Source: Propionibacteriaceae bacterium (GTDB lineage Bacteria > Actinomycetota > Actinomycetes > Propionibacteriales > Propionibacteriaceae). From it: a stretch of DNA of 64,000 nt. The stretch spans positions 124,001-188,000 of the forward strand of contig JAISHO010000012.1 in the NCBI GenBank assembly GCA_031262485.1, written 5' to 3'. The notes below the pieces were generated by a model, which did not search any database, was not told the DNA's origin, and saw only the letters and a program-made list of their open reading frames with translations. Below, in pieces: positions 1 to 5,408 of the stretch; positions within the stretch are counted from its first letter, which is position 1; each line of letters begins with the position of its first letter. Made by a program: the position numbers and the translations under genes.

Positions 1-716
1 CGCCGGTTCTCCATCGCCTGGATCCACCCAGCCCAGGTGTCGGTGTCGATGCCGGAGGCTCTGCCCAGCTTCGTCATGAGGGCACGCCATTCCGGGCGAG
101 CCGGCTCGAGATAACGGTCGGGGCGGAAGGTCGGCACGACCCGGCGGGTGAAGCTGGGATCTACGGCCAGCTTCTCGTGGTGCTCGAGATCGTCGCAGGG
201 ATCGTCCGTCGTCGCCATGAATGCGATGTCGAAGCGCTCCATGAGCGCCCGGGGGCGGAAACTGGGATCGTCCAGAGCCGCCGCGATCCCGTCGTAGATC
301 GCATCGGCCGTCTCCGCGCTCGGGCGCATCCGCAAGCCGAAGACGTCGACGAGGACGGCCGACATCCAATAGCGCATCGGCGTGCCGCGGAACAAGGGCC
401 AACGGACGCAGAACTCGCGCCAAGCCGCACGGGCCTCGGCGTCGCTGAGGACGCGCGAACCCGGTGGCACCCCGAGACGTTCGAGCGGGACGCCGTCGGC
501 GTGCAGCATGCGGTTGATGTAGTGGTCGGGGGTCAACAACAGGCTCACCGGATCGGTGAACGGCACGTCGTCGGCGATCCACTGCGGCGGCACATGGCCA
601 TGGGGGGAGATGATCGGCAGATCCCGCACGCCTTCGTAGAGACGACGGGCGACATCGCGCACCGTCGGTTCCGACGGGAAGAGACGGTCCGGATGCCATG
701 AGAGCTCTGGAGACAT
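1..716 (-). CDS. uxaC: Glucuronate (uronate) isomerase, N-terminal part, cut by window edge
   Basis: Reading the minus strand from the ATG at 716 gives 238 uninterrupted residues that run off the left edge. They match the start of uronate isomerase: LPIISPHGHVPP with the metal-binding HxH at residues 39 and 41, TPDHYINRMLHADGV at 62-76, and TTDDPCDDLEHH at 169-180. The enzyme interconverts D-glucuronate and D-fructuronate (or galacturonate and tagaturonate) in the cytoplasm, the first step of hexuronate breakdown. It is divergent from the LarA-family gene at 877, with a 160-bp intergenic region between them. The family is usually about 460 residues, so roughly half is visible. The family call is firm; which uronate it prefers cannot be read from the sequence. 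Confidence 0.9.
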   Translation of the reverse strand, partial: MSPELSWHPDRLFPSEPTVRDVARRLYEGVRDLPIISPHGHVPPQWIADDVPFTDPVSLLLTPDHYINRMLHADGVPLERLGVPPGSRVLSDAEARAAWREFCVRWPLFRGTPMRYWMSAVLVDVFGLRMRPSAETADAIYDGIAAALDDPSFRPRALMERFDIAFMATTDDPCDDLEHHEKLAVDPSFTRRVVPTFRPDRYLEPARPEWRALMTKLGRASGIDTDTWAGWIQAMENR

Positions 717-757
717 GACTCAAATCCAAGTCCTTGAGGCCGTCCGGCGCATCATTT

Positions 758-770
758 GGCAACAGTTTCC
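758..770. promoter_or_regulatory. Possible operator in the uxaC/larA divergent intergenic region
   Basis: GGCAACAGTTTCC is an odd-centred imperfect palindrome (5 of 6 base pairs) between two divergently transcribed sugar-acid genes. A LacI-type regulator is encoded 2 kb away. The size and placement suit an operator, but a single short palindrome is weak evidence. Confidence 0.25.
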
Positions 771-876
771 GCACCTTGGACGACCTCGTCACAATAATAT
801 GGGTGACGATACCGGCGCGCCCTAGGGGTCTGGAATCGCCTGAAGCCACCTGTTCCCCACTTCGTCGAGGAGTCCG

Positions 877-2178
877 ATGACCACCGCCGTTTCAGCCTCG
901 TCCCCCTCGGCGACGACGGCGCCCGAACTCATCGGCGGCGCCCACCGCCATGTCGCCGACGACGATCTGACGTCCTTCATCGAACGTCACCTGGCCGCAT
1001 CGCCGGTCGACGGGTCGGACGTCGTCCTCGTCATCCCCGACGCCACCCGCTCGATGCCGCTCCCGCTCGTCATGCGGGTCGTCCATCGTTCGCTCATCGA
1101 CCGGGTCGCCAGCCTCACCGCCGTCATCGCGCTCGGCACCCACGCTTACATGGAACAATCCGCCATCGAGGCGATGTTCGGGGTCGAGCCGGGGGGGTTG
1201 GCCGAGGCCTATCCGGGGCTGACGGTCGTCAACCACGAGTGGGCCGATCCGTCGATGATCGTTTCGGTCGGCCGCCTCTCCGCCAACCAGATCGACCAGC
1301 TCTCACAAGGAAGAATGCGTGAAGAGGTGGAGGTCGAGATCAACCGGCGCGTGGCTGAGGCGGGCCATGTCATCGTCATCGGGCCGGTCTTCCCGCACGA
1401 GGTCGTCGGCATCTCCGGAGGGAACAAATACTTCGTGCCAGGTGTGGCGACGCACGAGATCATCGATCTCACCCACTGGGTCGGGGCGCTCATCGGAATC
1501 GATGGGACGATCGGACGACGTGGCACGACCGCGGTGCGCGCCATCATCGACGCCGCCGCCGCGCTCATCCCCGCCCCGCGCTCGGCGTTGTGCCTCGTCG
1601 TCGAATCCGGTTCCGGGGCGGTCGAAGCGGCCGCCTTCGGCACGCCTGAGGAGGCGTGGGCGCTGGCCAGCGAGGTCGCGGCCGATTCCCACATCGTCTA
1701 CCTCGACGCCCCGGTGAACCGGATGCTCGCGATCATGCCGCGGCGCTACGACGACATCTGGACCGCCGCCAAGGGCTGCTACAAGGCCCAACCCGTCATG
1801 GCCGAGGGGGGCGAGGTCGTCATCTACGCGCCCCACATCACCGAGTTGTCGCAGACCCACCCCGAGATCGAAAAGATCGGCTACCACTGCATGGAGTTCT
1901 TCCTCAAGCAATGGGATGTCTACGGCGACGCGCCGAAATCAGTCCTGGCCCACTCGACCCATGTGCGCGGAGCGGGGACCTACGATCCCGCCACCGGAGT
2001 CGAACGCGATCGCATCCGCGTCACGCTGGCGACGGGAATCCCGCGCGAGGTCTGCGAGCGGGCGAACGTCGGCTATCTCGACCCGGCGACGATCGACGTC
2101 GACGCCTGGCGGGCCGATCCCGAGATCATGGTCGTCGACAACGCCGGTGAGGTGCTGTTCCGTCTCGCCGGCGAGTGA
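877..2178 (+). CDS. larA: LarA-family nickel-pincer 2-hydroxyacid racemase/epimerase
   Basis: This 433-residue protein belongs to the lactate racemase (LarA, DUF2088) superfamily, which inverts the C2 hydroxyl of hydroxy acids with a nickel-pincer nucleotide cofactor. All expected catalytic and ligand residues are present: D55 and R58 in IPDATRSMP, H89 in LGTHAYM, H174 in PHEVVG, the cofactor-anchoring K184 in GGNKYFVPG and nickel ligand H200. K184 and H200 match the numbering of the Lactobacillus enzyme. A good ribosome site (CGAGGAG) precedes the ATG. No larB, larC or larE cofactor genes are in the window. The neighbours (uxaC, LacI, gnd) point to a sugar acid such as gluconate/mannonate rather than lactate; that substrate is inference. 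Confidence 0.85.
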   Translation: MTTAVSASSPSATTAPELIGGAHRHVADDDLTSFIERHLAASPVDGSDVVLVIPDATRSMPLPLVMRVVHRSLIDRVASLTAVIALGTHAYMEQSAIEAMFGVEPGGLAEAYPGLTVVNHEWADPSMIVSVGRLSANQIDQLSQGRMREEVEVEINRRVAEAGHVIVIGPVFPHEVVGISGGNKYFVPGVATHEIIDLTHWVGALIGIDGTIGRRGTTAVRAIIDAAAALIPAPRSALCLVVESGSGAVEAAAFGTPEEAWALASEVAADSHIVYLDAPVNRMLAIMPRRYDDIWTAAKGCYKAQPVMAEGGEVVIYAPHITELSQTHPEIEKIGYHCMEFFLKQWDVYGDAPKSVLAHSTHVRGAGTYDPATGVERDRIRVTLATGIPREVCERANVGYLDPATIDVDAWRADPEIMVVDNAGEVLFRLAGE

Positions 2179-2242
2179 GCCGGTTCCCGTCCGAAGCCGG
2201 GGCAAGCCGGTTCATGCGCCCCCGACGGCCTGACCCGAAGTC

Positions 2243-2563
2243 TTAGTCGGAATGGCGGTTGGCTAGGCCGAACACGGTGGCGACGACGGTGATGCCGCCG
2301 ACGACCGCTCCGCCGAGGGCGGCCAGGCGATCGACTCGCCAGCCGTCTTCGTCACGGAATTGCGCTTTGAGGTCGTCGAACTTCGTCTTGGCCATGTCCT
2401 TGGCGTCCTCGACCGACCGGTGGACGACCGCTTTGGGGTGGACTTCGTTGATCAGTGAGCTGACGTTCTCGGCCAACCGGGACCGAGCGTCGGCCAGTTC
2501 CCGTTCGATGTCCCCGATCGTCCGCTCCGCTTTCGCGTGGGCCGCCTTGTCGTCCTGAGCCAT
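2243..2563 (-). CDS. DUF3618 small membrane-anchored protein
   Basis: This 106-residue protein has a charged, helical N-terminal half (ERTIGDIERELADARSRLAENV) and one C-terminal hydrophobic segment (ALGGAVVGGITVVATVFGL). That layout is the DUF3618 pattern common in actinobacteria; the function is unknown. I start it at the ATG at 2563 because GGAGGAGG lies six bases upstream; an in-frame ATG seven codons earlier lacks a ribosome site. It converges with the LarA-family gene and diverges from the LacI gene, so it is probably its own transcription unit, unrelated to sugar-acid use. Confidence 0.75.
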   Translation of the reverse strand: MAQDDKAAHAKAERTIGDIERELADARSRLAENVSSLINEVHPKAVVHRSVEDAKDMAKTKFDDLKAQFRDEDGWRVDRLAALGGAVVGGITVVATVFGLANRHSD

Positions 2564-2713
2564 GGCACGCCTCCTCCAGTTCACAGTGAGAATCCCTCAC
2601 CCCGTGTTCGATGATCAAGCTTAGAGGGCGCGGTGAAAGCCGACCAGTCGACCTCTCACGACGGTCCCATCCGCCTCTCACGGAACTCGTTGCCGCATGT
2701 TGCCATGATCCTC

Positions 2714-2728
2714 TACGGTGGTCTCGTG
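2714..2728 (+). promoter_or_regulatory. Leaderless-type promoter for the LacI regulator
   Basis: TACGGT at 2714-2719 sits six bases before the GTG at 2726, with TTGCCG at 2690-2695 as a plausible -35 box 18 bp away. The expected transcription start falls at the GTG. This supports that start over the in-frame ATG at 2633. Confidence 0.5.
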
Positions 2729-3892
2729 GACTCCGATATCCCCGACCCAGCCCCCCATCCCGTCACGATCTACGAAGTCGCCACCGCAGCCGGCGTCAGC
2801 CCCTCGACCGTCTCCCGCACCTTCTCCCGGCCCGGGCGCGTCTCCGTTCGAACGGCCGACCATGTCCGCACCATCGCCCAGAAACTCGGCTACCGCGACG
2901 AAGCCGTTTTCCGTCCGGTCGTCAACTCCCGCACCCACGTCATCGCGCTGGCCGTCTCCGACGTCACCAATCCGTTCTACTTCGGGCTGTTACGGGGAGC
3001 TGAGGCGGCCGCCGCCAAGGCCGGATACACGATCCTGTTGCTCGACGCCCAGGAGTCCTCCGATCACGAGCGCGACAATCTCGCCCGTGTCCTCCCCCTC
3101 GTCGACGGTTTGCTCGTGGCGAGTTCGCGGATGAGCGACACCGTCTTGCGGTCGATCGCCAAGACCCATCCCCTCGTCGTCCTCAATCGGCATGTCGCCG
3201 GCCTGACCTGCGTGGTCCCCGACGTCAAGCTGGGGATGCGCCAAGCCATCGCCCACCTCGTCTCCCTGGGGCACACCCACCTCCACTATGTCGCCGGGCC
3301 GGACGCCTCCTGGATGTCGGGGATGCGCTGGATGGCGATCCGTGAGGCGGCTTCCGACGGCTCCTTCACCCCGCACCGAGTCGGCCCGGCCACGCCGACG
3401 GTCGACGGGGGGAAAGCGGCAGCCCGGCTCGTGGCCGATCGCCGAGCGACGGCGGTGCTGAGCTACAACGACCTCACCGCCATGGGGTTGATCCAGGGAC
3501 TGAAAACGCTCGGGTTACGCGTGCCTCAGGACGTCTCCGTCCTCGGTTTTGACAACATTTTCTCTTCCGACTTGGTGACACCGTCGTTGACGACGATCGC
3601 CGCGCCGATGGGGAAACTGGGCGAGACGGCCGTCGCCCACATCATCACGATGCTGTCCGGATCGCGCACCCACACCTCGGGGCCGATCACGGTGCCGGTG
3701 CGCCTCATCGTCCGATCCTCGACCGGCGTCGCACCCGGCGTGGAGCCGAACCGACGTCGCGGCGGCTCCATCCCGGAAACACCGTGCAAATTCCTGTCCC
3801 ACGAGCCTGGGGCCAGCACAATGGTTCCTAGCGGGACGACCCCGGGCGAACCATTGCCGGAAGCCGCGAACGGCGTCCTTCCCACCCACTGA
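2726..3892 (+). CDS. LacI-family transcriptional regulator
   Basis: The N-terminal helix-turn-helix reads TIYEVATAAGVSPSTVSRTF, followed by the LacI hinge region and a periplasmic-binding-protein-like effector domain (VIALAVSDVTNPFYFGLLRG near the start, VSVLGFDNIF near the end). From the GTG at 2726 it is 388 residues; the ORF can be extended upstream to 2633, but that extension contains the promoter. Roughly 50 residues follow the usual family end (RLIVRSSTGVAP), rich in Pro, Gly and Arg and unlike any domain I know. It is 43 bp upstream of gnd and near larA and uxaC, so a role in sensing a sugar acid or phosphorylated sugar is likely but inferred. Confidence 0.85.
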   Translation: MDSDIPDPAPHPVTIYEVATAAGVSPSTVSRTFSRPGRVSVRTADHVRTIAQKLGYRDEAVFRPVVNSRTHVIALAVSDVTNPFYFGLLRGAEAAAAKAGYTILLLDAQESSDHERDNLARVLPLVDGLLVASSRMSDTVLRSIAKTHPLVVLNRHVAGLTCVVPDVKLGMRQAIAHLVSLGHTHLHYVAGPDASWMSGMRWMAIREAASDGSFTPHRVGPATPTVDGGKAAARLVADRRATAVLSYNDLTAMGLIQGLKTLGLRVPQDVSVLGFDNIFSSDLVTPSLTTIAAPMGKLGETAVAHIITMLSGSRTHTSGPITVPVRLIVRSSTGVAPGVEPNRRRGGSIPETPCKFLSHEPGASTMVPSGTTPGEPLPEAANGVLPTH

Positions 3893-3935
3893 TCGACCCA
3901 TTCGTCCACTGACCATCATCTTCACGAGGAGCCCG

Positions 3936-5408
3936 ATGTCCGAGACCGTCACCACCACACCGGTTACCACCGCCGAGGACGGCGCCGCCCAGGTCGGCGT
4001 CATCGGCATGGCTGTCATGGGCTCGAACCTGGCCCGCAACCTCTCCCATCACGGCTACCGCACCGCGATCTTCAACCGGACGACGGCGACGACGTTGGAG
4101 TTCGCCAAGCGGTTCCCGCAGGAGGGCTTCGTCGTCACCGAGACGCTCGAACAGTTCGTCGCCGCTTTGGAGCGGCCGCGGCGGATCATCCTCATGGTCA
4201 AGGCCGGCCAGGCCACCGACGCCACGATCGATTCGCTCGTCCCGCTGCTCGAGCAGGGCGACATCGTCGTCGACGGTGGCAACTCGTTCTTCCAGGACAC
4301 CCGTCGCCGGGAGGCGGCCCTGCGCGAGCACGGCATCCACTTCGTCGGCGCCGGCATCTCCGGCGGCGAGGTCGGGGCGCTCGAGGGGCCGGCCATCATG
4401 CCGGGCGGCTCGGAACACGCTTACACCTATGTCGGCCCCATCCTCGAGGCGATCTCGGCCAAGTACCACGATGAGCCGTGCTGCGCCCACATCGGGCCGG
4501 ACGGCGCCGGTCACTTCGTCAAGATGGTCCACAACGGCATCGAATACGCCGACATGCAGTTCATCGGCGAGGCCTACGAATTGCTCAAGGGGGCGGGGTT
4601 CTCCCCGGCCGAGGCGGCCCACGTCTTCGCCGCCTGGAACACCGGGGATTTGGAGTCCTACCTCATCGAGATCACCGCCGACGTCCTCCAGCAGCTCGAC
4701 GCCGCCACCGGGGTGCCGCTCGTCGACCTCATCGTCGACGAGGCCGGCATGAAGGGCACCGGCACGTGGACGGTGGCCGAAGCGCTCAAGCTGGGCGTTC
4801 CGGCGGCGTCGATCGGCGAAGCCGTCTTCGCCCGCGCCGTCAGCTCGACGCCCGATCTGCGCCAGGCCGGCCAACGCGCGCTGTCGGGGCCGTCCGGCTC
4901 GATCCCGGTCGAGGACCGGGCTCAGTTCACCGAGGACATCCGCCAGGCGCTGTGGGCCTCCAAGGTCGTGGCCTACGCCCAGGGTTTGCACGAGATCGCC
5001 GTCGCGGCCACCGAATACGGCTGGTCGATCGACGTCGGCGCGGTGGCGAAGATCTGGCGGGCCGGCTGCATCATCCGGGCCCGCCTGCTCGATCGCATCG
5101 CCGACGAGTACGCTGCCGACAATCTCGTCACCTTGCTCGAGGCTCCCTCGATCGCCGAGGAGTTGGCTCGCTGCCAGCTGGCCTGGCGCCGCGTCGTCGG
5201 GGTGGCGACGACGGCCGGGGTGGCGATCCCGGGGTTCAGCTCGGCGCTGTCGTACTACGACATGGTGCGCGCCCCGCGCCTCAACGCCGCGTTGACCCAG
5301 GGCTTGCGCGATTACTTCGGCGCCCACACTTATCGTCGGATCGACCAGCCGGGCGTCTTCCACACCTTGTGGTCGGACGACCGGCGTGAGATCAAGGTCT
5401 CCGACTGA
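3936..5408 (+). CDS. gnd: 6-Phosphogluconate dehydrogenase, decarboxylating
   Basis: This 490-residue cytoplasmic enzyme oxidises and decarboxylates 6-phosphogluconate to ribulose 5-phosphate, forming NADPH. The dinucleotide-binding start GVIGMAVMGSNLARNL is at 21-36, the substrate loop GAGISGGEVGALEGPAIM at 138-155, and the catalytic lysine region GHFVKMVHNGIEYADM at 192-207. Length and ends match the long, dimeric Gnd family. A GAGGAG site precedes the ATG. It follows the LacI-type gene by 43 bp and precedes an aminotransferase by 17 bp, so these three may be co-transcribed. Its presence beside uxaC and the LarA homologue suggests a sugar-acid route that drains into the pentose phosphate pathway. 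Confidence 0.97.
   Translation: MSETVTTTPVTTAEDGAAQVGVIGMAVMGSNLARNLSHHGYRTAIFNRTTATTLEFAKRFPQEGFVVTETLEQFVAALERPRRIILMVKAGQATDATIDSLVPLLEQGDIVVDGGNSFFQDTRRREAALREHGIHFVGAGISGGEVGALEGPAIMPGGSEHAYTYVGPILEAISAKYHDEPCCAHIGPDGAGHFVKMVHNGIEYADMQFIGEAYELLKGAGFSPAEAAHVFAAWNTGDLESYLIEITADVLQQLDAATGVPLVDLIVDEAGMKGTGTWTVAEALKLGVPAASIGEAVFARAVSSTPDLRQAGQRALSGPSGSIPVEDRAQFTEDIRQALWASKVVAYAQGLHEIAVAATEYGWSIDVGAVAKIWRAGCIIRARLLDRIADEYAADNLVTLLEAPSIAEELARCQLAWRRVVGVATTAGVAIPGFSSALSYYDMVRAPRLNAALTQGLRDYFGAHTYRRIDQPGVFHTLWSDDRREIKVSD

Follow-up and report, generated by a model that had tools for sequence, protein, structure and literature searches.

A GntE-type LarA homologue among uronate genes of a Propionibacteriaceae bacterium and a possible route from mannonate through gluconate to 6-phosphogluconate

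In Thermotoga maritima, a route leading from mannonate to gluconate was proposed by Rodionova in 2012, as related in PMC6978723 and PMC7583248, and the UxaR regulon of this organism joins gnd-uxaRED-gntEK with kdgAK-uxuBA (PMC3750489). The activity of the epimerase, GntE, was published in 2020 (PMC7583248), in agreement with the statement of an earlier note on the DNA described here that some LarA homologues act as D-gluconate 2-epimerases. The present analysis concerns a stretch of 64,000 nucleotides from a Propionibacteriaceae bacterium (the window; G000:C43:124001-188000), whose source assembly of 2.84 Mb in 49 contigs is 95.24% complete, and in particular a LarA-family gene, here called gntE, that lies among genes for uronate utilization. 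We estimate at about 65% the probability that this locus carries uronates, by way of fructuronate, mannonate and gluconate, to 6-phosphogluconate and so to the pentose phosphate pathway. The idea of the route is already known from the T. maritima proposal and the GntE activity, and this locus adds a member; for actinobacteria, no description of it was found in the titles and abstract openings of open-licence papers.

The likeness to T. maritima lies in the association of a GntE-type epimerase with gnd and uronate genes, and in the same proposed flow from mannonate to gluconate and 6-phosphogluconate (PMC7583248, PMC3750489, PMC6978723). The two systems differ in regulation and gene content, since the UxaR regulon there includes kdgAK-uxuBA, whereas here the regulator belongs to the LacI family and UxuA gave no match in the genome in a PF03786 profile search; moreover, T. 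maritima GntE2 (LarAH20; structure 4nar) has about 31% identity in fold alignment with P0001, the protein encoded by gntE, and carries E,S in a loop where P0001 has E,V. For mannonate, GntE2 has a kcat/KM of 11 per s per mM. Also comparable is GntE1 (LarAH19) of Corynebacterium glutamicum, likewise an actinobacterial GntE with a uronic-acid context, active on D-mannonate (PMC7583248). In the hybrid isomerase-phosphoketolase route of Lactobacillus suebicus, mannonate also ends as 6-phosphogluconate without UxuA and 2-keto-3-deoxygluconate (KDG), but in that organism the kinase step comes before the epimerase step (PMC6978723). Finally, the canonical UxuA/KDG pathway of Ashwell has UxaC and UxuB in common with the proposed route but uses UxuA, found neither in this genome nor in the 80 gntE neighbourhoods described below.

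The 5' part of uxaC, coding for a uronate isomerase (PF02614), occupies positions 1..716 on the minus strand and runs past the left edge of the window; taken in full (L002:17295-18716), the gene reaches 549 bits with the glucuronate isomerase model NF002794 (cut-off 387), and its product would turn glucuronate into fructuronate. After uxaC, on the same strand and outside the window, there is a UxuB-like gene of the mannitol dehydrogenase family (L002:15869-17269; PF01232 and PF08125 over cut-off), whose top NCBIfam match is fructuronate reductase, at 247 bits with a cut-off of 603; its place and family fit an enzyme that would reduce fructuronate to D-mannonate. The gntE gene (877..2178, plus strand; PF09861 over cut-off) encodes the 433 amino acids of P0001, a predicted nickel-pincer nucleotide (NPN)-dependent D-mannonate/D-gluconate 2-epimerase which, once loaded with NPN, would invert C2 by hydride transfer and so form D-gluconate from D-mannonate. 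A kinase, none being recognised in this genome, would phosphorylate gluconate to 6-phosphogluconate; the product of gnd (3936..5408, plus strand), a decarboxylating 6-phosphogluconate dehydrogenase (NF006765, 676 bits, cut-off 413; TIGR00873, 623 bits, cut-off 427), would then yield ribulose 5-phosphate, which enters the pentose phosphate pathway. The proposed route thereby bypasses mannonate dehydratase and KDG; the C6 carboxyl of glucuronate becomes C1 of mannonate and of gluconate, which Gnd would release as CO2. Upstream of gnd lies a gene for a LacI-family regulator (2726..3892, plus strand; PF00356 and PF13377 over cut-off), which reaches the cut-off of no NCBIfam equivalog; its start codon is uncertain, GTG at 2726 being preferred from the sequence over the first start of the frame at 2633. 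Gene calls and profile scores thus confirm that uxaC, the LarA-family gene, the LacI regulator and gnd are close neighbours, as the earlier note had described. Genes, order, residues and an operator-like motif are read directly from the DNA, and from them we infer the enzymatic steps.

The named proteins nearest to P0001 come from Propionibacteriaceae. A search against the sequences of solved structures (E 0.001) returned four matches, one near full length, 4nar (2e-61), which is the D-gluconate 2-epimerase GntE2, and three partial. The AlphaFold2 model of P0001 has a mean predicted local distance difference test (pLDDT) score of 94.3, and Foldseek again placed 4nar at the top (template modelling scores 0.86/0.89, root mean square deviation 2.4, 31% identity), followed by other LarA-family structures. 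All nickel-pincer residues, reported in the earlier note, are indeed filled: the NPN-binding and catalytic residues R75, K184, H200, D72, H108, H174 and K298 of LarA (PMC7583248) correspond to R58, K184, H200, D55, H89, H174 and K299 of P0001, respectively. In 4nar the cofactor residues are R41, K164 and H180, and the substrate side is formed by E155, S156 and G286 (PMC7583248); at these positions the alignment gives R58, K184 and H200, and E175, V176 and A298, respectively. The usual GntE signature is E, V, A, H (PMC11770544), and P0001 shows E175, V176, A358 and H359, the last two assigned by our own mapping, together with W295 in helix 11. In a set of 107 aligned sequences, made of P0001, the family loci and those named loci with a GntE frame longer than 350 amino acids (these sets overlap), the D and R of the NPN and catalytic set are kept in 105 homologues, the remaining two having gaps, and the other eleven marked positions are kept in all 107.

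Regarding its class, P0001 is above the cut-off of no curated NCBIfam equivalog. The closest model is that of the LarAH18 "putative hexonate epimerase" (NF052594), with 152.9 bits for a cut-off of 500, and membership of group 18 was consequently rejected; the closest solved relative belongs to LarAH group 20. Since six named relatives scanned against NCBIfam behaved in the same way, the group of P0001 seems to have no NCBIfam model of its own. Residues, nearest solved structure and genomic context together support an assignment to the GntE type and not to the racemases of lactate or malate.

The context was analyzed in 80 named loci, kept out of at least 564 confirmed gntE loci (C. glutamicum GntE1 is outside the 80), with flanks of up to 10 kb on each side of gntE, many contigs being shorter; calling of open reading frames recovered gntE in 77 of the 80, and a similar miss rate is expected for the other genes. 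The records are nearly all labelled as actinobacteria, among them Propioniciclava, Tessaracoccus, Microlunatus, Geodermatophilus, Blastococcus, Streptomyces, Cellulomonas, Kribbella, Actinoplanes, Knoellia, Brachybacterium, Dermabacter, Nocardia and others, one being labelled Acidobacteria. UxuB is near gntE in 50 loci, UxaC in 45, the LacI regulator in 32, Gnd in 16, the gluconokinase GntK in 15 and a PfkB-family kinase in two. The genes for NPN synthesis are also frequent (LarE 38, LarB 34, LarC 31, at least one in 42). UxaC and UxuB are found together in 42 loci, and all five steps in seven (L172, L173, L198, L201, L212, L215 and L217, L212 having the PfkB kinase). Since UxaC or UxuB is near gntE in 53 of the 80, the grouping of uronate genes with gntE is not due to chance. 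Genes of the KDG route are scarce (Eda 2, KdgK 1, ManD 1), and UxuA is near gntE in none of the 80, no called frame being nearest to UxuA even at E 1e-4. One locus (L184:3994-12543, Geodermatophilaceae bacterium URHB0062) combines gntE with ManD, two genes similar to 2-keto-3-deoxy-6-phosphogluconate (KDPG) aldolase and a KDG-kinase-like gene; in this organism GntE may feed gluconate into the KDG route.

Gene calling in 41 stretches of the same family, the own locus and 40 others (at least eight loci are common to this set and the named one), revealed a recurring order, in which uxuB-uxaC faces gntE and is followed by lacI and often by gnd, with variations; in L062 the order extends to gluconokinase, uxuB, uxaC, gntE, lacI, gnd, larE, larB. 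A gluconokinase-like FGGY gene adjoins uxuB in L055, L056, L057, L062 and L063, and the one of these five that was scanned had TIGR01314 as its best match (356.5 of 648.6 bits). In five other loci a PfkB-family kinase takes the place of the FGGY gene (L066:17089-18162, L069:12814-13890, L067:5010-5999, L061:13601-14674 and L047:11501-12589; 65-81% identity among the five), either as a neighbour of uxaC or of uxuB or flanked by gnd and gntE, further genes intervening in L067. It is likely a replacement gluconokinase, possibly of a new type, but it may also be a KDG kinase, because its best matches, weak and below cut-off, are KDG-kinase-like models. The bypass from mannonate through gluconate into Gnd, suggested by the earlier note, thus has supporting context at the level of the gntE group, where UxaC, UxuB, GntE, a kinase and Gnd occur together in some relatives.

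The distribution of these genes was compared in 197 sampled genomes of the family, the own one included, taking as gntE a match to P0001 at E 1e-30. Matches were obtained for gntE in 74 genomes, for LarC in 74, for UxaC in 104 and for UxuA in 52, 34 of which are strong by our own split (best E below 1e-79). Genes gntE and larC are both present in 60 genomes, each is alone in 14, and neither occurs in 109; gntE is accompanied by uxaC in 68 genomes and lacks it in six. Of the 104 uxaC genomes, 54 have gntE without UxuA and 23 UxuA without gntE; the two coexist in 14 and are both missing from 13 (Fisher p 2.7e-5). Relatedness inflates such unstratified figures; stratification by genus gave an odds ratio of 0.04 for strong UxuA (p 0.009) and of 0.13 for all UxuA (p 0.008). 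When all 197 genomes are taken regardless of uxaC, the exclusion does not reach significance (strong UxuA, p 0.08; all UxuA, p 0.14). Thus, gntE tracks larC, and those uxaC carriers that have gntE tend to lack uxuA.

A candidate LacI operator, GTTGCCGCATGTTGCC, lies upstream of lacI at 2689..2704 (plus strand). The underlying direct-repeat motif, GTTKCCNNNTGTTGCC, was spotted by eye in the output of palindrome mining and is common to the lacI upstream regions of this genome and of the genus members L035, L036 and L039. In the window it has this single occurrence when up to one mismatch is allowed, 0.10 being expected. Of 17 exact matches in the 80 named loci (1.47 Mb), 14, spread over 12 loci, fall upstream of a pathway gene, in the windows of 300 bases before GntE, UxaC, UxuB or LacI; these windows account for 4.2% of the sequence, and the binomial figure for this enrichment, 3e-17, is overstated because the loci are related. 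With up to one mismatch, the matches rise to 59; 20 of these lie outside the upstream windows, and an upstream match is present in 31 of the 80 loci. In the 35 family loci outside the derivation set, all five exact matches are in upstream windows, in four loci; of 235 loci in all, most lack the exact motif and 24 have it, four of them being copies of this locus. It is at such candidate sites, GTTKCC-N3-TGTTGCC, that LacI probably acts as a repressor of these genes. Bare palindrome mining of 32 intergenic regions revealed nothing shared, and the palindrome GGNAACNGTTNCC, with one exact match in the window (758-770), was discarded as an operator, being absent upstream of these genes in 39 other loci. 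In the gap between uxaC and gntE, GGCAACAGTTTCC (758..770, no strand assigned) contains GGCAACA, a weak candidate half site of the LacI operator.

Several observations weigh against the proposed route. Searches for LarB, LarC and LarE found none of the three in the assembly, which is 95% complete. A search for a TIGR01313 gluconokinase in this genome was negative, PfkB kinases not being searched for here; of its five FGGY genes, the four that were scanned match best as xylulokinase or rhamnulokinase, all below cut-off, and the fifth, adjoining an aquaporin-like gene, is read as a glycerol kinase from that context and not by a scan. The UxuB-like gene stays below the fructuronate reductase cut-off, with D-arabinitol 4-dehydrogenase close at 239 bits. 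The genome also contains ManD, a mannonate dehydratase unrelated to UxuA (L149:8177-9385, that is G000:C15:38177-39385; 685 bits, cut-off 550), and mannonate has therefore another possible exit here; once it was found, the absence of UxuA was no longer taken as sufficient proof of a bypass. In the family, gntE and UxuA coexist in the 14 uxaC genomes given above, seven of which belong to genus g17, where both genes occur in seven of the eight uxaC genomes. Among the named loci, 11 of 80 have neither pathway nor NPN genes nearby. No exact copy of the operator occurs in the gap between uxaC and gntE of this locus, nor in any of the six loci of genus g7, which have the closest gntE. Finally, the Michaelis constant of C. 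glutamicum GntE1 for mannonate is 120 mM, and for this reason its native substrate was left open (PMC7583248). Of the genome contents that the earlier note proposed to look up, uxuA was not found, which favours the bypass, but neither were gluconokinase and larB/C/E. With no gluconokinase recognised and ManD present, the genome approaches, but does not reach, what that note regarded as contrary to its idea, a complete uxuA/kdgK route together with absence of a gluconate kinase. The bypass is partly supported: as a reading of the gntE group the suggestion of the note is a good one and holds, and kinase and cofactor supply make this genome a weaker case.

Among the other explanations, the one we rank highest, still unlikely, is that the epimerase has a different hexonate or an aldarate as its substrate, one example being the conversion of D-glucarate to D-mannarate, and that the uronate genes are mere functional neighbours. 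The discoverers of C. glutamicum GntE1 suggested the same for their enzyme, given its high Michaelis constant for mannonate and its uronic-acid context (PMC7583248), and the failure of P0001 to reach any curated equivalog cut-off would agree with it; however, 50 of the 80 loci have UxuB, the producer of mannonate, close to gntE, and 25 have a gluconokinase, Gnd or a PfkB kinase there, aldarate genes being outside that search. It is quite improbable that a kinase acts first, forming 6-phosphomannonate that is then epimerised. This order was seen in L. suebicus extracts (PMC6978723), and kinase genes adjoin gntE in relatives, but the assayed GntE enzymes use free mannonate (PMC7583248, PMC11770544), and no gene has been assigned to the epimerase of L. 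suebicus. Almost negligible is the chance that P0001 is a lactate or malate racemase, as automatic database names such as "lactate racemase" would have it: the scores are 56 of 460 bits for lactate and 87 of 500 for malate, and the residues are those of the GntE signature and not the ones given for the two racemases, so that this assignment was rejected.

Doubtful, and slightly less probable than another substrate, is an exit of mannonate to KDG by way of ManD, with GntE only feeding gluconate in by the reverse reaction or equalising the two pools. The ManD gene scores above its cut-off, and L184 groups gntE with ManD, KDPG-aldolase-like and KDG-kinase-like genes. Against it, the enzyme encoded here resembles the RspA type of Escherichia coli, reading HGPSD where the Caulobacter enzymes read HGATD, and enzymes of the RspA type dehydrate mannonate very poorly; the genes around ManD have no match among those of the compared uronate loci, one of the 80 named loci has ManD near gntE, and gntE is here adjoined by gnd and not by KDG genes. 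It is less probable again that gntE is a remnant whose product, for want of LarB, LarC and LarE, has no cofactor and is inactive. The three genes were indeed not found, gntE occurs in none of the 18 other sampled genomes of the genus, and five of the six g7 genomes with gntE also lack LarC, more than we would expect from gaps alone; 13 further gntE genomes have no LarC, and in none of the 14 LarC-less ones is LarB or LarE over cut-off. Conversely, gntE has an uninterrupted reading frame in which every active-site residue is preserved, and LarC is present in 22 of 22 gntE genomes of at most 10 contigs, compared with 38 of the 52 others, which makes an assembly gap the likelier reason for its absence here; as larB, larC and larE sit together in relatives, one gap could remove all three. 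For the same reason the absence was not kept as proof of a LarC-free system.

Returning to the route through mannonate and gluconate, it is likely widespread across actinobacteria. With somewhat less confidence than for the locus itself, we lean towards the view that in Actinomycetota a LacI-controlled, nickel-dependent regulon, made of uxaC-uxuB, gntE, a gluconokinase or PfkB-type kinase, gnd and larBCE under the operator GTTKCC-N3-TGTTGCC, has replaced UxuA/KDG as the normal route for uronates, so that growth on them depends on nickel and passes through the pentose phosphate pathway. If this is true, many soil, host-associated and industrial bacteria need nickel to use uronates, from which they would gain NADPH and pentose phosphates through Gnd, bypassing KDG; a native substrate would be provided for the actinobacterial GntE group, the question left by the discoverers of GntE1, and many database entries named "lactate racemase" would be corrected. 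The loci named above include cultured strains, which allows direct tests.

Some minor observations concern the locus and its relatives. Between gntE and lacI lies a DUF3618 gene (2243-2563, minus strand), for which no counterpart was matched in 39 compared loci. In the sister genomes G043 and G060, uxuB-uxaC-lacI-gnd is retained without gntE; in UxaC (74-77%) and LacI (68-69%) they rank among the genomes most similar to this one, while in UxuB and Gnd they come no nearer to it than g7 does. It is in g7 that the nearest gntE occurs (66-72% in these stretches), and g7 shares with this locus the order OsmC-uxuB-uxaC-gntE. Since close sister UxaC and LacI and the gene order of g7 are both seen here, gntE was probably lost in the sisters, its replacement by transfer being the alternative.

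In place of gntE, the sisters G021, G043 and G060 have a hexonate epimerase of group LarAH18 (564-577 bits, cut-off 500) as a neighbour of larB and larE (L087:9441-14163, L088:6916-9745 and L086:6819-9754, respectively); these genomes, 98-99% complete, have no LarC anywhere (PF01969), which points to a cofactor route independent of LarC or else to a gap common to the three. In genus g18 (G017, G040, G073, G087 and G097), where gntE is absent, the LarC matches reach only to about position 235 of 375, four of the five containing an in-frame TGA, and G017, G040 and G073 have UxuA; the cofactor route looks as if it were decaying in these genomes. In G119, which is 99% complete and has neither uxaC nor LarC, gntE is cut to residues 136-370 (G119:C16:199054-199764) and is likely a remnant.

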